This document shows, piece after piece, positions 17,972 through 27,069 of a DNA stretch of 64,000 bases. The stretch covers positions 248,001 through 312,000 of the forward strand of contig NZ_VTTP01000002.1 in assembly GCF_008364845.1 (NCBI RefSeq). Direction: 5' to 3'. The notes beneath the pieces were generated by a model. The model was not told the origin of the DNA, searched no databases, and saw nothing but the letters and a program-made list of their open reading frames with translations. The stretch comes from Actinotalea subterranea. Its GTDB lineage: Bacteria; Actinomycetota; Actinomycetes; Actinomycetales; Cellulomonadaceae. Within the stretch, counting starts at the first letter, position 1, and each line of letters opens with the position of its first letter. A program made the translations under genes and the position numbers.

Positions 17972-17981
17972 GATGCCGAAC

Positions 17982-18659
17982 GTGGTAGCCAACGTCCCGC
18001 CCCCGACAGGGCGCCCCGCTGACATTGCCGTGATGATCGTCGACGACCACGAGGTGGTCCGGCGGGGTATCGCGGAGGTGATCGACCGCTCCGAGGGCAT
18101 GGGGGTCGTCGCCGAGGCCGGCTCGGTCGCCGAGGGCATCCGGCGCGCGACGCTCGTGCGCCCCCAGGTCATGCTCGTCGACCTGCAGCTGCCCGACGGG
18201 ACGGGCATCGACCTCATGTCAGCGCTGCGCGAGTCCCTCCCCGAGACCCGGGCCATCGTGCTGACCTCGTTCGACGACGACGACGCGCTCGCCGCGGCCC
18301 TCCAGGCGGGTGCCGCCGCGTACGTGCTCAAGAGCGTGCGGGGCGCCGAGATCGCCGACGTCATCCGTTCCGTGGCCGCGGGCCGCACCCTGCTCGACGA
18401 GCGGACGGTGACGCGGCGCCGCGCCGACCACGACGACCCGACGGCCGACCTGACTCCGAGCGAGCGCAAGGTCCTCGACCTCATCGGTGAGGGCATGTCC
18501 AACCGGGAGATCGCCGAGCGCCTCGGTGTCGCGGAGAAGACGGTCAAGAACCACATCACGTCGCTGCTGTCGAAGATGGGCCTCCAGCGCCGCACGCAGG
18601 TCGCGGCGTGGGTCGCGGGCCACAAGCACAGCTCGTGGCGCAGCGAGCCGGGGGAGTAG
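17982..18659 (+). CDS. DevR/DosR-like response regulator (NarL/LuxR family)
   Basis: A 225-residue two-component regulator. The receiver domain has DD at 21-22, the phosphorylated Asp67 (VDLQLPDGTGID), the switch threonine/serine in VLTSFDD, and K117 in YVLKSV. The C-terminal LuxR-type DNA-binding domain reads GMSNREIAERLGVAEKTVKN followed by HITSLLSKMGLQRRTQ. K186, K189 and N190 occupy the positions of DosR K179, K182 and N183, which contact GGGAC in the DosR box. The start is placed at GTG 17982, 7 bases after TAGGAT (17969-17974); an ATG three codons upstream would overlap that hexamer. It converges with a DosS-like kinase, its probable partner, in front of the cyd operon. Confidence 0.87.
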   Translation: MVANVPPPTGRPADIAVMIVDDHEVVRRGIAEVIDRSEGMGVVAEAGSVAEGIRRATLVRPQVMLVDLQLPDGTGIDLMSALRESLPETRAIVLTSFDDDDALAAALQAGAAAYVLKSVRGAEIADVIRSVAAGRTLLDERTVTRRRADHDDPTADLTPSERKVLDLIGEGMSNREIAERLGVAEKTVKNHITSLLSKMGLQRRTQVAAWVAGHKHSSWRSEPGE

Positions 18660-18679
18660 CCCCCCGCGCCGTCCCCGTA

Positions 18680-18704
18680 GCCCGGCCCTTCCCAGCGGCC
18701 GGGC
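18680..18704. terminator. Hairpin between the convergent regulator and kinase genes
   Basis: GCCCGGCC (18680-18687) and GGCCGGGC (18697-18704) with a 9-base loop, between the two stop codons; probably a shared terminator. Confidence 0.5.
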
Positions 18705-18751
18705 CGACTGCCTGAACCGGCGGACCCGCTGCCGCGCGGGGAGAGCTCGGC

Positions 18752-20458
18752 TCAGGCGCTCGCGCGGCCCGAGAAGGGCGCCTGCCAGGTCAGGAGCGTC
18801 CCGCGGCCCTCGCTCGTCGCGCCGAGCGTGAACGTGCCGCCGTGGCGGCGAGCGCGCGCGGCGAGGTTGTCCGTCCCCGACTTGCGGTCGCGCTCGGGCG
18901 GCAGTCCCGCACCGTCGTCCTCGACCTCGACGGTGATGCGCCCGGTCGGGCCCTCGCCGCCCACGTCGATGCGCACGGCCACCGCCGTCGCACGCGCGTG
19001 CCGGGCGGCGTTCGCCAGACCCTCCCGGACGACTGCCACGACGTCGTCGCCCATGTCCTCGCCCACGCGGTCGTCGATCGCCCCCGCGTCCCCGTCGAGG
19101 GCCTCCGCCGAGTCGAGCACGCGACCGTCGACGGTGATGACGAGGGACGGGGCGAACCCGAGGCCCGTGCGGGCGAGCGACGCCTCGCGGCGCAGCCGCT
19201 CCGCGAGCGGTGCGGACGCGTCCGGGTCGCGCAGGGCGTGCACGATCGACCGGATCTGGCGGACGGTCGAGTCGACGTTGTCGAGGGCGTCCTCGACGAT
19301 CCCCGTCAGCTCGGAGGGGTCGACGCCGCGCGCGGCGCGTCGTCGGACCGTCTCGAGCTGCATGCCGGTCGCGAAGAGCTGCTGGATGGCCAGGTCGTGG
19401 AGGTCGCGGGCGATGCGTTCGCGCTCGTCGAGCAGCGCGGCGACGTCCTGCGCGTGGCGCGCCTCGGCGAGGACGAGCGCGAGCGCCGCCTGCGCGGCGT
19501 AGGTCTCCGCGGTCGCCAGGTCGGAGGGCCCGAAGGGGGCCGAGCCGCTGCGGCGCAGCAGGACGAGCACGCCGACCCCGCGACCGTCGGACTGCATGGG
19601 CGCGTACAGGGCCGGGCCGAACTGGCGCATCGCGTCGACGCGCATCGCACGCGCCCGTGACAGGGAGTCGACGACGAGCCCGTTGCCGTCACGCAGCACG
19701 GTGCGTGCGCGGCCGTCGGGCGGCATGACCGTCCCGATGAGCTCGTCGGCACCGACGCCGTCGACGATCTCCATGACCCACGTGTCGCTGAGCCCGGGGA
19801 GCACGAGGGCCGCCGTGTCGGCTCCCGCGACCTCGCGGGACGAGGCGGCGATCTGCGCGAGGACCTCCTCCTCCTCGGCACCCGAGAGCAGCATCGTGGT
19901 GATCTGCTGGCCCGCGCGCAGCCAGTGCTCGCGGCGCTCGGACTCGGCGTACATCTGGGCGTTCTGGATGGCCACCGCGGCCGCGGCCGCGAGCGTGATG
20001 ACGGCCTCGTCGTCCTCGTCGGTGAACCCGCCGGCCTTCTCGGAGAGGTACAGGTAGCCGAACACGCGGTCGCGGACCCGGACCGCGGCGCCGAGGAACG
20101 AGCCCATGGGCGGGTGGTTCGGCGGGAACCCCTTGAACGTGGGGTGGTGCATGAGGTCGTCGAGCCGCAGCGTCCCGTGCGAGGGGATCGACCCGAGCAC
20201 GCCGATCGCGTGCGGCGGCCGGCCCAGCATCGCGGCGAGCCGGTCGTCGATCCCCGTGTGCACGAACGTCGTGGACCGCCCCCGCGCGTCGAGCACGTTG
20301 ATCGCCGCGTACTTCGCACCCGTGAGGTCCGCGCTCGCGCTGACGAAGCGCTGGAGGACCGTGGGCAGGTCGAGGTCGGACGCGAGGCCCAGCGCGGCCT
20401 GGAGCAGGTCGGCGGCCGCGAGCGAGCCGTCGTGGTGGTCGGTGCCCCGGGGGGTCAT
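18752..20458 (-). CDS. DosS/DevS-like GAF-GAF sensor histidine kinase
   Basis: A 568-residue soluble kinase without membrane segments. GAF domain A spans about 25-170, GAF B about 185-335, the HisKA_3 dimer domain about 340-410 with phospho-His354 in ERERIARDLHDLAIQQLF, and the ATPase domain follows (REGLANAARHA, EDDGAGLP). GAF A contains GFPPNHPPMGSFLGAAVRVRD; the GFPP-HPPM block matches the region of mycobacterial DosS/DosT that carries the proximal heme histidine, here probably His115. The protein is therefore a candidate O2/NO/CO or redox sensor. Its ATG shares one base with the cydC stop (TGATG), so it is the last gene of the cydABDC operon. Its probable partner is the convergent DosR-like regulator. 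Confidence 0.87.
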   Translation of the reverse strand: MTPRGTDHHDGSLAAADLLQAALGLASDLDLPTVLQRFVSASADLTGAKYAAINVLDARGRSTTFVHTGIDDRLAAMLGRPPHAIGVLGSIPSHGTLRLDDLMHHPTFKGFPPNHPPMGSFLGAAVRVRDRVFGYLYLSEKAGGFTDEDDEAVITLAAAAAVAIQNAQMYAESERREHWLRAGQQITTMLLSGAEEEEVLAQIAASSREVAGADTAALVLPGLSDTWVMEIVDGVGADELIGTVMPPDGRARTVLRDGNGLVVDSLSRARAMRVDAMRQFGPALYAPMQSDGRGVGVLVLLRRSGSAPFGPSDLATAETYAAQAALALVLAEARHAQDVAALLDERERIARDLHDLAIQQLFATGMQLETVRRRAARGVDPSELTGIVEDALDNVDSTVRQIRSIVHALRDPDASAPLAERLRREASLARTGLGFAPSLVITVDGRVLDSAEALDGDAGAIDDRVGEDMGDDVVAVVREGLANAARHARATAVAVRIDVGGEGPTGRITVEVEDDGAGLPPERDRKSGTDNLAARARRHGGTFTLGATSEGRGTLLTWQAPFSGRASA

Positions 20459-22356
20459 CAGCTCTCCTGCTCCTGTGCCGTCCAGGCACTGCGGTACGCG
20501 GCGCGGACGTCCGAGTCCTCGACCCCGTCCGGGTCCACGCCCAGGAGGTCGCGGTGACGCCCGCGTGCACGCACGCTACCCGTCCGGTCGAGCAGGATCA
20601 CCTCGTCCGCCGCCTCGAGCCCGGTGACGCGGTGCGTGACCACGACCACGCCGCGTCCGCCGGTGAGCGACCCGTCGAGCAGGCCGGTCATCACGCGCGC
20701 GGCGCCCGCGTCGACGTGCTCGGTGGGCTCGTCGAGGAGGAGCACCGGGGCGGGGCCGAGCAGGGCACGGGCGAGCAGCACGCGGCGCCGCTCGCCGCCC
20801 GACACGCGCGTCGCGTCGGCGCCGAGGACCGTCTCGAGGCCGTCGGGCAGGGCGTCGAGCCACGCGCGCAGCCCGACGGCGTCGAGGGTGGCCGCGGCCT
20901 CCTCGGGCGTGACGTCCCCGCGACCCACCCGCAGGTTCTCCAGGAGGGTCGTGTCGAAGACGTGGGCGTCCTCGGTCGTGAGCGCGACGCGACGCGCGGC
21001 CGCAGAGCGGGTCAGGGCGTGGACGGGGTCGCCTCCCGCGCGCACCTCGCCTGCGACGGGTGGCAGCACCCCGGCGAGCGTGAGGAGCAGCGTGGTCTTG
21101 CCGACACCACTGGGCCCGACGATGGCGACGCTGCGCCCCGGCCCGACCGTCAGGTCGAGGTCCCTGAGCACGGGGGCGCGTCCCGGCCAGCCGCAGGCGA
21201 GCCCGCGCGCGACGAGCGTGCCTGCAGCCGCTCCCGGCCGTGCAGGCCCCGCGTCACGCGCTCCGTCTGCAGCCGGCCGCTCGTCGACCTCGGGCGTCCC
21301 GGGGGCCCCGGCGGCCTGCCCGCGCCCTCCGCGTGGCACCGGGCCGCCCGCGGGCGACGGCTCTCCACCGGCCGCGTCGAGCAGCTCGGTGATGCGCCGG
21401 GCGGCCTGCCGCGAGCGGAGCAGCTGGACCCCCGCCGCGGGCAGCATCGAGACGGCCTCGAAGGCCGCGAGCGGCGTGAGCACCACGACGGCGAGCTCGA
21501 CCGGTGCGAGGCGGCCCGCGGTGGTCGCCGGGATGCCGAGCACGAGGGCCGCGAGGACCGCGAGGCCGATCGCGAGGGGCAGGAGGGCCGCGGAGACGGC
21601 GGCGGGGCGTGCGGCACGGTCGCTCGCGTCGGCGAGGTCCCGGTCGGCCCGGCGCAGGTGGCCGAGCATCTGGCCGGTGCGACCCGCGACCGCGAGCTCG
21701 CCGGCACCGTCGAGCAGCGTCAGCGTCGTCGCCGCCATGTCCGCCCGAGCCTGCGCGGAGCGCGTCTCCGCCTCGCGCGTCGCGCGCACCGACCACCAGG
21801 GCGCGACGACGCCGGCGAGGAGCAGGCAGAGCGCGAGCGCGAGCCCGGCCTCGGGCAGGAACGCGCCGACGAGCACGACCGAGCCGACGCCGAGCGTCGC
21901 GGCGACCCCGACGGGGAGCAGGCCGCGCACGACGACGTCGCCGACGCTGTCGACATCGGCGCCGACGCGTGCGAGCAGGTCACCGCGCCGCAGGGCGACC
22001 AGGGCGCCGGCGTCCCCGGCCGCGAGCCGCTCGTACAGCCGGACGCGCAGGGTCGCCATGCCGCGCAGGGCGACGTCGTGCGAGACGAGGCGCTCGACGT
22101 AGCGGAGCACGCCACGCGAGATACCTAGGGCGCGGACCGAGACCGCGGCGATCGTCAGGTACATGACCGGCGGCATCTGGGACGCCCGGGCGATGAGCCA
22201 GGCGGACACCGCGGCGAGCCCGACGGCGCTGCCGAGGCCGGCGGTCCCGGCGAGCACGGCGAGGAGCACGCGGCGTCGGTCGACCTCGAGGAGCGCGACG
22301 GCTCGGCGCAGCGGGTCGTCGCGCCGGAGCACGTCGCGCGCGGGTCGCGGGCTCAC
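20458..22356 (-). CDS. cydC: Thiol reductant ABC exporter subunit CydC
   Basis: Half of the heterodimeric CydDC transporter, which exports cysteine or glutathione to the outer face of the membrane and is needed to assemble cytochrome bd. The 632-residue protein has six hydrophobic segments in the first 300 residues, a Gly/Pro/Ala-rich linker (about 335-385), and a nucleotide-binding domain with Walker A GPSGVGKTT, signature VSGGERRRV, Walker B LLLDEPTEHVD and the H-loop VTHRVTG. GTG start in a 4-base overlap with cydD; its stop overlaps the kinase start. Second-last gene of a five-gene operon. Confidence 0.92.
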   Translation of the reverse strand: MSPRPARDVLRRDDPLRRAVALLEVDRRRVLLAVLAGTAGLGSAVGLAAVSAWLIARASQMPPVMYLTIAAVSVRALGISRGVLRYVERLVSHDVALRGMATLRVRLYERLAAGDAGALVALRRGDLLARVGADVDSVGDVVVRGLLPVGVAATLGVGSVVLVGAFLPEAGLALALCLLLAGVVAPWWSVRATREAETRSAQARADMAATTLTLLDGAGELAVAGRTGQMLGHLRRADRDLADASDRAARPAAVSAALLPLAIGLAVLAALVLGIPATTAGRLAPVELAVVVLTPLAAFEAVSMLPAAGVQLLRSRQAARRITELLDAAGGEPSPAGGPVPRGGRGQAAGAPGTPEVDERPAADGARDAGPARPGAAAGTLVARGLACGWPGRAPVLRDLDLTVGPGRSVAIVGPSGVGKTTLLLTLAGVLPPVAGEVRAGGDPVHALTRSAAARRVALTTEDAHVFDTTLLENLRVGRGDVTPEEAAATLDAVGLRAWLDALPDGLETVLGADATRVSGGERRRVLLARALLGPAPVLLLDEPTEHVDAGAARVMTGLLDGSLTGGRGVVVVTHRVTGLEAADEVILLDRTGSVRARGRHRDLLGVDPDGVEDSDVRAAYRSAWTAQEQES

Positions 22357-24134
22357 GGACGCACCCCCTCGGACACGGTGGGTGCGTCCGGGGCGGCGTC
22401 GAGCCCGCGGGGTTCCGCGACGACGGTGACGACCGTGTCCGCGCACGCGAGGAGCGCCGGCCGGTGCGCGACGAGCAGCACGGTGCGGCCCTGCGCGGCG
22501 AGCGCGGCCAGGGTGCGCAGCACGACGGCCTCGCCGTCGGCGTCGAGGTGGGCGGTCGGCTCGTCGAGCACCACGAGCTGGGCGTCCGCGACGAGCGCCC
22601 GGCTGAGGGCGACCCGCTGGCGCTGACCGAGGCTCAGGCCCACCCCGCCCTGCCCGATTCGGGTGTCCCAGCCCTGGGGGAGACCGGCGAGGACGGCGTC
22701 CAGGCCGGTGGCCTGTGCGGCACGCCCGAGCGCCTCGTCGCCGACGGTGCGACCGTGCGCGACGGCGTCCCGCAGGGTCCCCGGCTCGAGGACCGGCCGC
22801 TGGGGCACCCACGCGACCTGGGCCCAGAGGGTCGCCGGGTCGACGTCGGCGAGGGCGAGCGCGCCCCCGTCGGGGCCGCCCGGCTCACCGGGTGCGTCGG
22901 GCCTGTCGGCCTCGGCGGCCTCGGCGGCCTCGGAGGTGCCCGCGGGCACGAGCGTCACGGTGCCGTCCGTGGGGGGCAGGAGGCCGAGGAGCACGGAGAC
23001 CGCGGTCGACTTGCCCGCGCCGTTGGCCCCGGCGAGCGCGACCGTCGTCCCGGGCGCGAGCTCGAGGTCGAGGTGGGCGGGTGCCAGGACGTCCCGGTCC
23101 GGTGCAGCGACGCAGACGTCGCGCAGCACCACGGTGGTGCGCCGCAGGTCCGGCGCCGGGCGGGTGCCGTGGCCGGGCGCCGGCGTCTCGAGGAGCGTGA
23201 ACGCCTGCTCGGCGGCCGCCACGCCGTCGGCGGACGCATGGAAGTGCGCCCCGACCTGACGCAGCGGCAGGTAGACCTCCGGCGCGAGCACGAGGACCGC
23301 GAGGCCGGTCTGGAGGTCGAGCGTGCCGCCGACCAGCCGGAACCCGACGCCCACGGCGACGAGCGCGACGGACAGCGTCGTGAGCAGCTCGAGGACCATG
23401 CCCGAGAGGAAGGCGACGCGCAGCGTGCCCATGGTGGCGACCCGGTGCGCGTCGCCGAGCTCGCGCACGCGCGCCGCGGGTCCGCGCTCGCGTCCGAGCG
23501 TCTGGAGCGTCGGCAGGCCCGCGAGGAGATCCAGCACCTGGTGCCCGAGCCGTGCCATGACCGTCATCCGGCGCTCGGCGTACCCCTGCGTCAGGCGTCC
23601 GATGAGGACCATGAAGAGCGGGACCAGCGGGATGGTCGCCGCGATCGTCGCCGCCGCGACCCAGTCGAGCCCGAGCACGACGGCGAGCGCCCCCGGCGTC
23701 ACGGTGACGGCGAGGAGGAGCTGGGGCAGGTACCGCACGAAGTACGGCTCGAGGGCGTCGAGCCCGCGGGTCGCGAGCGTCGCGACGCCGACGCCCTCCT
23801 CCCGGGCGAGCCAGCGGGGCCCCAGGGCCACGGCGTGCGCGACGACCTGCTCCCGCAGCTCCGCCGTGGCACGCGTCGCCGACCGGTGGGCGAAGCGCTC
23901 CTGCGCACCGCTCACCAGCGCCCGGACCGCGACGACGGCGGCGAGCAGGGCCACGGTGGGCGCGACGTCGTCCCAGCGCGCGGTACCGGTGACCACCGGG
24001 GCGAGCACGGCCGCCAGCAGGAGGGCCTGGGCGATGACGAGCGCCGCCGTGAGGATCCCGAGGCCGGCGGTCAGCAGGACGTAGAGCCGGGCGGCCCGGG
24101 CGCGGTGGAGCAGGCGCGGGTCGAGCGGCTTCAC
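22353..24134 (-). CDS. cydD: Thiol reductant ABC exporter subunit CydD
   Basis: Partner of CydC. The 593-residue protein starts KPLDPRLLHRARAARLYVLL, a usual CydD N-terminus, with a six-helix membrane domain containing PRWLAREEGVGVATLATRGLDALEPYFVRYLPQL, the family signature. The nucleotide-binding domain shows Walker A GANGAGKST, signature LSLGQRQRVALSRAL, Walker B LVVLDEPTAHLD and H-loop VAHRPAL. A short Glu/Ala/Pro-rich insertion (about 430-460) follows the Walker A region. GTG start overlaps the cydB stop by four bases (GTGA), so translation is coupled through the operon. Confidence 0.93.
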   Translation of the reverse strand: MKPLDPRLLHRARAARLYVLLTAGLGILTAALVIAQALLLAAVLAPVVTGTARWDDVAPTVALLAAVVAVRALVSGAQERFAHRSATRATAELREQVVAHAVALGPRWLAREEGVGVATLATRGLDALEPYFVRYLPQLLLAVTVTPGALAVVLGLDWVAAATIAATIPLVPLFMVLIGRLTQGYAERRMTVMARLGHQVLDLLAGLPTLQTLGRERGPAARVRELGDAHRVATMGTLRVAFLSGMVLELLTTLSVALVAVGVGFRLVGGTLDLQTGLAVLVLAPEVYLPLRQVGAHFHASADGVAAAEQAFTLLETPAPGHGTRPAPDLRRTTVVLRDVCVAAPDRDVLAPAHLDLELAPGTTVALAGANGAGKSTAVSVLLGLLPPTDGTVTLVPAGTSEAAEAAEADRPDAPGEPGGPDGGALALADVDPATLWAQVAWVPQRPVLEPGTLRDAVAHGRTVGDEALGRAAQATGLDAVLAGLPQGWDTRIGQGGVGLSLGQRQRVALSRALVADAQLVVLDEPTAHLDADGEAVVLRTLAALAAQGRTVLLVAHRPALLACADTVVTVVAEPRGLDAAPDAPTVSEGVRP

Positions 24135-25150
24135 ACCCGCTCGAGCGGCAGCCCCGTGTGCTCGGGGATCTGCTCGACCGTCAGGCGCTTGCGGAAGACC
24201 CAGTACGTCCAGCCCTGGTACAGGAGCACGACGGGCGTGAGCACGACGGCGACCCAGGTCATCACGGTGAGGGTGTAGTCGGTCGACGACGCCTCCGCGA
24301 CGCTCAGCGAGTTCGCCGGGTCGAGGGCGGGCATGACGTCCGGCCACATCGAGCCGAAGATCAGCACGACGGCGGCGACGATCGCCACCGCGGATGCGAG
24401 GAACGCGAGGCCCTCACGGCGCATGCGCGTGGCGCCGACGAGCACGAGGAGCGCGATGGCGGCGGCGGCGGTGGCGGCCCACGTCCAGGTCACGGAGTAG
24501 GCGAGCTGCGCCCACACGGCGAACGCACCAGCCACGACGAGGGTCGCGACGGAGAGTCGTGCGGCGAGCGCACCGGCCCGCGCGCGGATCTCGCCGTCGG
24601 TCTTGAGCGCGAGGAAGACCGCCCCGTGCGTGAGGAAGATGAGCGCCGTCGTCGCGCCGCCGAGCAGTGCGAACGGGTTGAGCAGGTCGAAGAAGGTGCC
24701 CACGTACTGGTGGTCGGCGTCCAGGTGCACGCCGCGCACGAGGTTCGCGAACGCGACGCCCCACAGGACCCCGGGGACCCAGGACCCGACGACGAGCGCG
24801 CGGTCGGCCCAGCGCCGCCAGCGGTCGTCGTTGATCTTGCCGCGCCACTCGAAGGCGACGACGCGGACGATGAGCGCGAGCAGGATGAGCAGCAGCGCGA
24901 GGTAGAAGCCCGAGAACATCGTGGCGTACCACTCGGGGAAGGCGGCGAAGGTCGCGCCACCGGCGGTCAGCAGCCACACCTCGTTCCCGTCCCAGACGGG
25001 CCCGATGGTGTTGATCAGCACGCGGCGGTCGGTGTCCTTGCGGCCCAGGACGGGCAGCAGCATCCCGACACCGAAGTCGAAGCCCTCGAGGACCAGGTAC
25101 CCGGTCCAGAGCACCGCGATGAGGAGGAACCAGACGGTCGACAGCTCCAT
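24131..25150 (-). CDS. cydB: Cytochrome bd ubiquinol/menaquinol oxidase subunit II
   Basis: Second membrane subunit of the high-affinity oxidase cytochrome bd, which oxidises quinol and reduces O2 to water without pumping protons. The 339-residue protein has about eight to nine membrane helices. Its N-terminus LSTVWFLLIAVLWTGYLVLEGFDFGVGML and GPVWDGNEVWLLTAGGATFAAFP are CydB signatures. ATG start with AGGAGA upstream, 13 bases after cydA. Confidence 0.96.
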   Translation of the reverse strand: MELSTVWFLLIAVLWTGYLVLEGFDFGVGMLLPVLGRKDTDRRVLINTIGPVWDGNEVWLLTAGGATFAAFPEWYATMFSGFYLALLLILLALIVRVVAFEWRGKINDDRWRRWADRALVVGSWVPGVLWGVAFANLVRGVHLDADHQYVGTFFDLLNPFALLGGATTALIFLTHGAVFLALKTDGEIRARAGALAARLSVATLVVAGAFAVWAQLAYSVTWTWAATAAAAIALLVLVGATRMRREGLAFLASAVAIVAAVVLIFGSMWPDVMPALDPANSLSVAEASSTDYTLTVMTWVAVVLTPVVLLYQGWTYWVFRKRLTVEQIPEHTGLPLERV

Positions 25151-25163
25151 GTCTCCTGCTTCC

Positions 25164-26630
25164 TCAGTAGGCGAAGGACAGGGGGCGGTCGCCGCCCGTG
25201 CCCTGGTTGTCGGGCGAGACGTCCGGCTCGGTGTCCGCGACGCCGTGGGCCGCGAAGCGCACCATCAGGCGGAACCAGATCACGGCGAGGAGCGCGTACA
25301 GCAGCGTGAAGGCCACCATCGACGCGATGACCATGCCGGGGCTCACGACCGTCGAGACACCCTTCGCGGTCAGCATCCAGACGCCGTCGATGCCGCTCGG
25401 GTTGGGGTTGGGCACGACGACCCATGGCTGACGGCCCATCTCGGTGAAGATCCAGCCGAAGGCGGACGCGAGGAACGGCGTCGGGATGGCGACGAGCGCG
25501 AGCTTGCCGAACCATGCGTGCGAGACGACCCGGCCCTTGCGCATCAGCCAGAGCACGGCCAGCGCCAGCGCGGCGCTGCCGGCGCCGAGCCCGATCATGA
25601 GCCGGAAGCTCCAGTAGGTGACGGCGAGGTTGGGCCGGTAGTCGACGCCCTCGCCGTAGAGCTCCTCGGAGCGCTGCTGGAGCTCCTCGACGCCGGGCAG
25701 GTAGGAGTTGAAGTCTCCGGACGCGAGGTAGGAGGTCACGCCGGGGATCGTCAGGATGTGCGTGACGCCGTCGCACGAGTTGGACAGGTCGCCGATGGTC
25801 AGCAGGGAGAACGACGCGCCGTTCTCGCCCTCGCACAACGCCTCCGCGGACGACATCTTCATCGGCTGCTGGTCGTACATGAGCTTGGCCTGCCAGTCGC
25901 CGGTCGCGCCGATGCCGACGCCGGAGACGAGCATCGTGACGACGCCGAGCACGACCGCCGGGCGGTAGACGTCCCGGGCGAGCTCCTCGCGGCCCTGGCG
26001 GATCGACCGGACCATCCACCAGCCGGCGATGCCCGCGACGAACGTGCCGGCCGTGAGGAAGGCGGCGGTGATGGTGTGGGGGAACGCCGCGAGGAGCGTC
26101 GGGTTGCTGAGCACGGCGCCGATGTCGACCATCTCGGCGCGGCCGGTCTCCTCGTTGTAGATCGCACCCACGGGGTGCTGCATCCACGAGTTCGCCGCGA
26201 GGATGAAGTAGGCGGACAGGTTGGTCGCGAACGCGACGGCCCAGATGCACGCCAGGTGGATCTTCTTGGGCAGGCGGTCCCAGCCGAAGATCCACAGGCC
26301 GAGGAACGTGGACTCGACGAAGAACGCGGCGAGCGCCTCCATCGCGAGCGGGGCCCCGAAGACGTCGCCGACGAACCGCGAGTACTCGCTCCAGTTCATG
26401 CCGAACTGGAACTCCTGCACGATGCCCGTCGCGACGCCGATCGCGAAGTTGATGAGCAGGAGCTTGCCGAAGAACTTCGTCAGGCGGAGCCACCGCTCGT
26501 TGCCGGTGCGCACCCAGAACGTCTGCATGAGCGCGACGAGCGGCGCGAGACCGATCGTCAGGGGCACGAAGATGAAGTGGTAGACGGTCGTGATGCCGAA
26601 CTGCCACCGGGCCAGGTCGAGTGCTTCCAC
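25164..26630 (-). CDS. cydA: Cytochrome bd ubiquinol/menaquinol oxidase subunit I
   Basis: Heme-carrying subunit of cytochrome bd, 488 residues, about nine membrane helices. The heme b595 histidine is H18 in TTVYHFIFVPLTIG. FVESTFLGLW carries the conserved glutamate of the proton path. FTEMGRQPWVV is the GRQPW motif of the quinol site. The Q-loop is the short type and contains two cysteines (LCEGENG and NSCDGV) that could form an external disulfide. GTG start after GAGGAGAGA. It is the first gene of cydA-cydB-cydD-cydC-kinase, with a predicted promoter and a DevR-box-like palindrome upstream. Confidence 0.96.
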   Translation of the reverse strand: MEALDLARWQFGITTVYHFIFVPLTIGLAPLVALMQTFWVRTGNERWLRLTKFFGKLLLINFAIGVATGIVQEFQFGMNWSEYSRFVGDVFGAPLAMEALAAFFVESTFLGLWIFGWDRLPKKIHLACIWAVAFATNLSAYFILAANSWMQHPVGAIYNEETGRAEMVDIGAVLSNPTLLAAFPHTITAAFLTAGTFVAGIAGWWMVRSIRQGREELARDVYRPAVVLGVVTMLVSGVGIGATGDWQAKLMYDQQPMKMSSAEALCEGENGASFSLLTIGDLSNSCDGVTHILTIPGVTSYLASGDFNSYLPGVEELQQRSEELYGEGVDYRPNLAVTYWSFRLMIGLGAGSAALALAVLWLMRKGRVVSHAWFGKLALVAIPTPFLASAFGWIFTEMGRQPWVVVPNPNPSGIDGVWMLTAKGVSTVVSPGMVIASMVAFTLLYALLAVIWFRLMVRFAAHGVADTEPDVSPDNQGTGGDRPLSFAY

Positions 26631-26685
26631 GGTCTCTCCTCGGGGCGCGTGCGGCAGCGGGCGGGCAGAGCGGCTCGTCCCTCCG

Positions 26686-26714
26686 ACCGTAGAAACCGGG
26701 GGAGCGGCCGAACC
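26686..26714 (-). promoter_or_regulatory. Predicted cydA promoter
   Basis: On the minus strand GGTTCG (26714-26709), a 17-base spacer and TACGGT (26691-26686). The expected start site is near 26679. The -35 is poor, as expected for a promoter that needs an activator. Confidence 0.45.
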
Positions 26715-26728
26715 GGGACCTTGGTCCC
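26715..26728. promoter_or_regulatory. DevR/DosR-box-like palindrome upstream of cydA
   Basis: GGGACCTTGGTCCC, a perfect 14-bp palindrome matching the GGGAC-N4-GTCCC core of the mycobacterial DosR box. Its centre lies about 42 bases before the predicted cydA start site, directly next to the -35, as for a class II activator. Confidence 0.6.
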
Positions 26729-26734
26729 TCTTTG

Positions 26735-26749
26735 GTGACGGGGCGTCAC
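26735..26749. promoter_or_regulatory. Second palindrome upstream of cydA
   Basis: GTGACG-GGG-CGTCAC, a perfect inverted repeat centred 20 bases upstream of the DevR-box-like site. It resembles a Crp/Rex-type half-site pair, but with odd spacing. The regulator is unknown. Confidence 0.45.
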
Positions 26750-27069
26750 ATCCTGCCGGGTGCCACGGGCGACGCGTGGTGCGTGTCCCAGGCGTGGCGC
26801 CGCCGTGGCGGACGGCCGTCCCTGTGCGATACTGACGCCGGCTGCACGGGTCGCCACACCGTCCCGAAGGCCGACGACGTTTCCGCTGGACATGGTCCGC
26901 GGCACGCCGCGCGCCGCCGTCATCGCCGATGACATGGCAGGCGCCGTCGCCGCCCGCCCGTCCAGCCAGACGACACCGACGACTTCCGTCGCGGGGCGCG
27001 ATGCGCACGCGACGACCGAACCGCCCGACGGCCGGCGAGTGTGGACAGCCAGCGGGCTTGGAGCACCTC
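26750..27069. other. Gene-free stretch and leader before the RNase E gene
   Basis: About 320 bases without a credible gene. GATACT near 26827 is a possible -10, which would give the RNase E transcript a 5' leader of over 200 bases; long leaders on rne are known to serve autoregulation in other bacteria. I see no conserved riboswitch fold. Confidence 0.4.

Follow-up and report, generated by a model that had tools for sequence, protein, structure and literature searches.

The closest described relatives of the kinase and response regulator encoded beside the cytochrome bd operon of Actinotalea subterranea are the mycobacterial kinases DosS and DosT and their regulator DosR (DevS/DevR). In DosS, mutants and a crystal structure are reported to identify His149 as the proximal ligand of the heme, the Y171F variant is described as having lost ligand discrimination, and E87A and E87G variants are reported with stable oxy complexes (PMC4082495). 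In Mycobacterium smegmatis cydAB is placed outside the 49-gene DevR regulon, with normal induction of cydAB reported for a devR mutant (data not shown; PMC7739888). Outside mycobacteria, OsdK/OsdR of Streptomyces coelicolor is likewise a DevR-like actinobacterial pair. Two further systems act on respiratory oxidases. The Streptomyces Rex protein controls the same operon, cydABCD, in response to respiratory state, and is described as an NADH/NAD+-sensing repressor acting at Rex operator (ROP) sites (PMC5355995). HrrSA of Corynebacterium glutamicum, also an actinobacterial two-component pair over the bc1-aa3 and bd oxidases, is reported to be heme-responsive, to activate aa3 and to delay bd through sigC though also activating cydAB (PMC7337898). 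Here we analyse a 64,000-nt stretch (the window) of the A. subterranea genome (4.03 Mb, 28 contigs), in which positions 17973-26728 hold a tightly coupled cydA-cydB-cydD-cydC-kinase operon on the minus strand, a convergent gene for a DosR-like regulator and a GGGACCTTGGTCCC palindrome.

We consider it probable that the kinase and regulator are a DosSR-related yet separate two-component pair dedicated to respiratory oxidase control, with low oxygen sensed through heme as the most likely signal. The kinase, encoded by the last gene of the cydABDC operon, would phosphorylate the convergent regulator, which would bind GGGACCWWGGTCCC centred near -41.5 and activate cydABDC and the kinase gene. Since the kinase lies in the activated operon, the sensor would raise its own level, and a positive feedback loop would follow from the anatomy of the locus. 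The regulator would simultaneously repress the aa3 oxidase through a box just after the predicted ctaC start. In this family the pair and its box occupy the place that a Rex-like operator takes in relatives, at the same rne-cyd-mutM locus. The signal would most likely be low O2 (or NO/CO), read by a heme in GAF-A. The features of the locus are as follows.

17973..18659, plus strand: NarL/DosR-like response regulator, with Response_reg and GerE (Pfam); start ATG 17973 or GTG 17982.
18752..20458, minus strand: sensor kinase with GAF-A, GAF-B, HisKA_3 and HATPase_c (Pfam; DosS GAF-A 4ynr, E=5e-33).
20458..22356, minus strand: cydC, ABC exporter subunit (TIGR02868, 577.6 bits, cut-off 329.05); start GTG 22356.
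22353..24134, minus strand: cydD, ABC exporter subunit (TIGR02857, 565.9 bits, cut-off 435); start GTG 24134.
24131..25150, minus strand: cydB, cytochrome bd subunit II (PF02322, E=1.5e-108).
25164..26630, minus strand: cydA, cytochrome bd subunit I (PF01654, E=3.4e-158); GTG start.
26686..26691, minus strand: -10-like hexamer TACGGT of the predicted cydA promoter; TAnnnT is conserved at a fixed distance from the box.
26715..26728, minus strand: DosR-like box GGGACCAAGGTCCC, predicted regulator site at a class II activator position, its start preceding the -10-like hexamer by 37 nt.
26736..26748, minus strand: second palindrome, TGACGNNNCGTCA, adjoining the box immediately upstream.

Pfam and TIGRFAM profiles together with the junctions identify cydA, cydB, cydD and cydC as an adjacent set making up a cytochrome bd operon, cydABDC. 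There is a 13-nt gap at cydA/cydB, a 4-nt overlap (GTGA) at both cydB/cydD and cydD/cydC, and a 1-nt overlap (TGATG) at cydC/kinase, in agreement with an earlier note on this DNA that had described a minus-strand cydA-cydB-cydD-cydC-kinase series with 4- or 1-base overlaps from cydB onward. The cyd locus is flanked on one side by a divergent gene of 1196 aa, encoding ribonuclease E/G (rne), and on the other by mutM-rnc. The ATG of the regulator at 17973 sits one base past the mutM stop, with GTG 17982 an equally possible start.

The best matches of the kinase GAF-A are the solved GAF-A domains of DosS and DosT (4ynr, E=5e-33, 118 bits), and the order of domains, GAF, GAF, HisKA_3 and HATPase_c, is that of DosS/DosT (Pfam: GAF, GAF_2, HisKA_3, HATPase_c). 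The GFPP-HPPM block of the DosS/DosT heme domain, to which the earlier note had pointed, was found as GFPPNHPPM; the histidine of HPPM, His115, aligns with the heme ligand His149 of DosS, and Tyr137 aligns with the distal Tyr171, so that the heme histidine and the tyrosine positions are both occupied as in DosS. The phospho-acceptor histidine is His354, the residue proposed before. We anchored the DosS numbering where chains 2y79 and 2y8h depart from wild type, taking these chains to be E87 mutants. The position of DosS Glu87, which is Gly in DosT, is Asn54 in the window kinase, neither Glu nor Gly. Amongst the 50 cyd-linked kinases with a GAF-A, His115 is kept in 49 and Tyr137 in all 50, and the Glu87 position is Asn in 48; in all 22 aligned DosS-like kinases the same position is Gly. 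The retention of the His and Tyr residues suggests that GAF-A may bind heme and sense O2.

The regulator has as its best solved relative DevR/DosR (3c3w, E=5e-53, 183 bits to DosR), and it has the receiver (Response_reg) and LuxR-type helix (GerE) of DosR/DevR, with the KTVKN recognition residues, noted earlier in this protein, aligned. The aspartate proposed to be phosphorylated had been given as D67; the aspartate is there, as residue 84 of the longest frame, and would be residue 67 only if translation starts at GTG 17982. The recognition helix reads KTVKNYVS in all 18 regulators of the DosS-like set and KTVKNHIT or HTT in 63/63 regulators of the cyd type (L135 was left out, its match being another regulator).

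To place the pair amongst its relatives we used a named-genome scan of 26 loci and a family set of 150 genomes, of which 107 have a kinase match at E<=1e-60 and from which 80 stretches were fetched. The order cydA, cydB, cydD, cydC, kinase is found in 12/26 loci of the named-genome scan. The search of relatives for the same operon that had been proposed as a check yielded 64 loci with the kinase directly behind cydC (49/80 family stretches and 15 named loci). In 59 of them the regulator is encoded on the other strand, no more than 400 nt away in 50 cases and at 1.4-4.8 kb in nine; the fetched stretch does not contain it in the remaining five. The nearest named relative of the window kinase is that of Actinotalea solisilvae (Cellulomonadaceae), at 90%.

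The remaining 31 stretches are not linked to cyd in this way and comprise 20 with kinases at 34-40% (L140-L159), seven paralogues and four loci of genus g6. The first 20 have no cyd gene in the stretch, and a 41-50% regulator in 18. In the case of L141 the kinase scores 163 bits against the GAF-A of DosS and the regulator 259 bits against DosR, compared with 118 and 183 bits for the window proteins; because of these higher scores we call this set DosS-like. In a tree of 62 kinases, 13 of the DosS-like set split from the cyd-linked, unlinked-paralogue and g6 kinases with support 100. The tree, which is rooted on those 13, was built by a quick method from GAF-B to the end of the protein, contains several long branches, and leaves out full-length DosS, L123 and several other fetched kinases. 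We take the cyd-linked pair, judging from these comparisons, to be DosSR-related but not canonical DosSR. It shares with DosS-DosT/DosR the kinase domain order, the heme His and distal Tyr positions and a NarL-type KTVKN regulator, but differs from it in sitting in the cyd operon, in having convergent genes and in not keeping Glu87; its kinases are also separate from the DosS-like set of the family, whose kinases and regulators score higher against DosS and DosR.

Among the unlinked kinases, the paralogues L114, L115, L133-L135, L137 and L138 are 52-61% identical, and the named loci L018-L021 and L026 are unlinked paralogues too, L019 and L026 being on short contigs. In genus g6 (L080, L083, L095, L098) the kinase has no cyd operon beside it and the regulator is kept where the stretch shows it; at L083, in genome G063, there is a tandem of two kinases.

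The predicted site of the regulator upstream of cydA has GGGAC/GTCCC arms, which we take to be shared with the DosR consensus. Over 57 cyd-linked loci including the window (56 distinct, as L023 is the same as L131) we looked within 400 bases upstream of cydA for a phased box, that is one with at most one arm mismatch and a TAnnnT hexamer 36-38 nt from its start. It was found in 55/56 distinct loci (56/57 rows), the sole exception being L084, and in all 56 (57/57 rows) when two mismatches were allowed. Shuffled sequences gave on average 0.1/57 (maximum 1), or 0.2 (maximum 2) under the looser rule. Within the box GGAC and GTCC show no variation (2.0 bits per column). Outside it the values do not exceed 0.6 bits in the 30 preceding columns, and they are 0.9 in the first column that follows and 0.4 or less beyond. 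If the hexamer begins at -12, the centre of the box would be near -41.5 with no -35 in sight, which is a class II activator position. The palindrome had originally been described as lying beside the cydA -35; the palindrome is present, but no -35-like hexamer is visible, and the box ends 23 nt before TACGGT.

The comparison with relatives without the pair is informative. We hand-picked 25 other genomes of the family with a cydA locus, a sample of the family, of which 22 have no pair and three belong to g6, with cyd away from the pair; of 30 cydA loci these 25 were used, leaving out G030 and G076 (43-46% matches) and three second copies. Nine of the 22 have a DosS-like kinase and 13 no kinase match at E<=1e-60. 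No phased box was found upstream of cydA in any of the 22. A Rex-like operator, defined from the published ROP consensus (PMC5355995) as TTGTGA-N6-TCACAA with at most 2/12 mismatches, lies upstream of cydA in 20/22 (17 with one mismatch or fewer), but in only 2/56 loci with the pair (none with one mismatch or fewer) and in 0/3 of the g6 genomes. The Rex-like operator and the pair thus nearly exclude one another, and the fixed class II box at 55/56 loci against 0/22 pair-less genomes, with the conserved operon, supports the earlier proposal that links the kinase and its regulator to the control of cyd. Of the 17 pair-less regions that were fetched, 16 have an rne match beyond cydA (in the other, L297, the contig starts 1.6 kb ahead of cydA), 10 have mutM behind cyd inside the stretch, and nine have both. 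The same rne-cyd-mutM locus, often shared by the two groups of genomes, thus exists in two states. Neither rne nor mutM is beside cyd in the three g6 regions. The cyd-type regulator was not found in any of the 20 pair-less genomes, out of the 22, that were searched for it (best match 47-52% in 14, none at E<=1e-35 in six), and two g6 genomes have it at 80-82% identity.

The second candidate target is ctaC (COX2), encoding a subunit of the aa3 oxidase. A search of the A. subterranea genome for one-base variants of the box gave three more sites, none of them phased, one of which is at ctaC. This box is present in 18/18 genomes of the genus (pair presence was looked at in all but G150 and G151), in 17 with at most one mismatch and in L177 with two, and in all 18 a TAnnnT hexamer, mostly TAGGCT, begins 15-18 nt ahead of the box start. 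In this position the predicted site would be within the first transcribed bases, which suggests repression; as an activator site the box was rejected, there being no conserved TA hexamer at +36 to +38. At both cydA and ctaC the predicted sites are thus boxes of the GGGAC..GTCCC kind, as for DosR/DevR. The ctaC box and the Rex-like operator of relatives do not figure in the earlier note. In a survey of 30 chosen genomes of the wider family the ctaC box was found in 8/8 genomes whose pair has GAF-A, in 2/2 of g6 and in 0/6 without a kinase match. The predicted logic, bd on and aa3 off, differs from that of HrrSA, which favours aa3.

A number of observations, set out in this and the next two paragraphs, count against parts of the proposed scheme. 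Fourteen distinct cyd-linked kinases (L120-L132, L139 and L023) are without GAF-A yet retain the operon and the phased box. The kinase match in these loci starts at residue 145 to 172 (in L132 at 351), a short way past cydC; for L023 the three frames between cydC and kinase were read and contain no GAF-A, and the other cases are judged from match and spacing. In the 62-kinase tree 13 of them fall on one side of a single branch with support 99, indicating one origin. In addition L136, a cyd-linked kinase on a long branch, has a GAF-A in which Ala replaces the heme His and position 54 is Asp. Because these kinases keep operon and box, and because L136 has Ala, the wiring does not require heme sensing. 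The output has thus stayed the same although the proposed sensor has in places disappeared or changed, which means that heme is unneeded there or that the input is now a different one. The wiring of cyd to the pair, as put forward in the earlier note, is supported by the comparison, but its heme part is weakened as a general rule. The same kinases favour a different explanation, in which the pair acts through the box but the input is redox, a metabolite or some other signal at GAF-B or the kinase core, with GAF-A as a modulator; Asn54 in place of Glu87 also speaks for it. We regard this as rather unlikely, since where GAF-A is present the heme His is kept in 49/50 and the distal Tyr in 50/50, and the domain matches that of DosS at 5e-33.

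The box itself, as a bare palindrome, is not significant. It is the only GGGACN4GTCCC in the window, but shuffles average 0.57 and contain at least one in 43/100, and the whole genome contains 13 copies, compared with 10 of the reversed pattern that served as control; in view of these counts, genome-wide enrichment was dropped as evidence. An unphased match with at most one mismatch is found upstream of cydA in 7/22 pair-less genomes, and five of the seven adjoin a Rex-like site. Of the cydA promoters displaced from the pair in g6, that of G063 has the phased box (1/3) and those of G005 and G047 have none (2/3). The ctaC box is present in only 2/8 genomes with GAF-A-less kinases (absent from 6/8), and it occurs in G018, one of six genomes with a DosS-like kinase only. 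Finally, the trees allow between one and three independent changes of pair presence. Tests of independent pairs for pair presence against box (p 1 and 0.5) were set aside, as there were too few changes to decide; with one to three such changes, the association of the pair with the box and with loss of the Rex site rests on conservation and position.

These matches bear on whether the box might be owned by another regulator, canonical DosR or another NarL-type protein, with the adjacent pair a passenger. The KTVKN helix recurs in the DosR-like regulators of relatives, five pair-less genomes have a full though unphased box beside the Rex-like site at cydA, and G018 has the ctaC box with only a DosS-like kinase. 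Nevertheless the phased box is seen only where the pair is present and in 0/9 genomes with only a DosS-like kinase, and the next full-length regulator match in the A. subterranea genome is only 41% identical, so that ownership by another protein seems improbable. Least likely is that, as in Streptomyces or mycobacteria, Rex or CRP exerts the main control over cyd and the box is minor: Rex is reported to control cyd in Streptomyces (PMC5355995) and CRP in M. smegmatis (PMC7739888), the genome encodes a Rex-type protein (PF06971) and TGACGNNNCGTCA adjoins the box, but no Rex-like operator was found at cydA in 54/56 pair loci, the window (searched at up to 2/12 mismatches) included, and the spacing of the TGACG palindrome, which is not seen at most loci outside the genus of the window, misfits TGTGA-N6-TCACA.

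Beyond the regulatory pair dedicated to the oxidases, which is the reading we prefer, we put forward more tentatively, as a possibility somewhat short of an even chance, that the pair replaced Rex, or the reverse, at the rne-cyd-mutM locus in one family. A single box would then switch bd on and aa3 off, nrdD and a gene for a YwiC-like protein would belong to the same low-oxygen set, and a subclade would have dropped GAF-A as its input changed. Were this so, central respiratory control would have been rewired at the same site, with an NADH-sensing repressor in the one case and a DosS-type two-component activator in the other, and in soil bacteria the role of DosSR-type signalling would shift from dormancy to the everyday choice between oxidases. 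The system would then be a tractable one for asking what DosS-type kinases sense, the GAF-A-less clade being a natural test of the purpose of the domain. Compared with known DosSR-type pairs, what would be new is the dedicated respiratory target. No report of a cyd-linked DosS-like kinase was found among the matches listed in the open-licence PMC literature. The OsdR consensus, given as AGGGCCGATCGGCCCT, differs from the box here, and a term search of the main text of that paper gave no word beginning cyd or cytochrome (PMC5069765).

The palindrome TGACGNNNCGTCA occurs in most cydA promoters of the Actinotalea type, but in other genera it was not observed at the majority of loci. Its spacing does not suit CRP or Rex, and both readings were rejected for that reason. 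In the pair-less loci L237, L238, L241, L244 and L248 the Rex-like operator at cydA is closely preceded by a DosR-like box; these promoters may be transitional ones. The A. subterranea genome holds no second close kinase, the next best being 31-32% over the C-terminal half.

Five of the 13 exact boxes of the genome have an A/T-A/T centre, and all five are near a gene and precede a TA-starting hexamer by 36-37 nt. The hexamer is TAnnnT in four of them and TAGAAA at nrdD; amongst the other eight boxes one precedes a TA-starting hexamer (L042, TAGTGC) and none TAnnnT. The five genes are cydA, nrdD (NRDD), the gene for the YwiC-like protein (PF14256), one for a membrane protein without a Pfam match and one for a permease assigned to the APC type by reading of its translation. 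The membrane protein, of 384 aa (L030, 1550-2704, reversed), follows directly after its phased box with apparently almost no leader. We found nrdD in 10/18 genomes of the genus, with a box (at most one mismatch, 450 bases upstream) in all 10; nine of these lie 96-130 nt from the start, and a TA-starting hexamer stands at the right distance in only two. Repeats of the ACATCT type between box and nrdD start (L181-L190) resemble what we take to be NrdR boxes. The gene for the YwiC-like protein is present in 15/18, and, leaving out L195 with its four bases of upstream DNA, 6/14 have a phased box, one of them with a mismatch.

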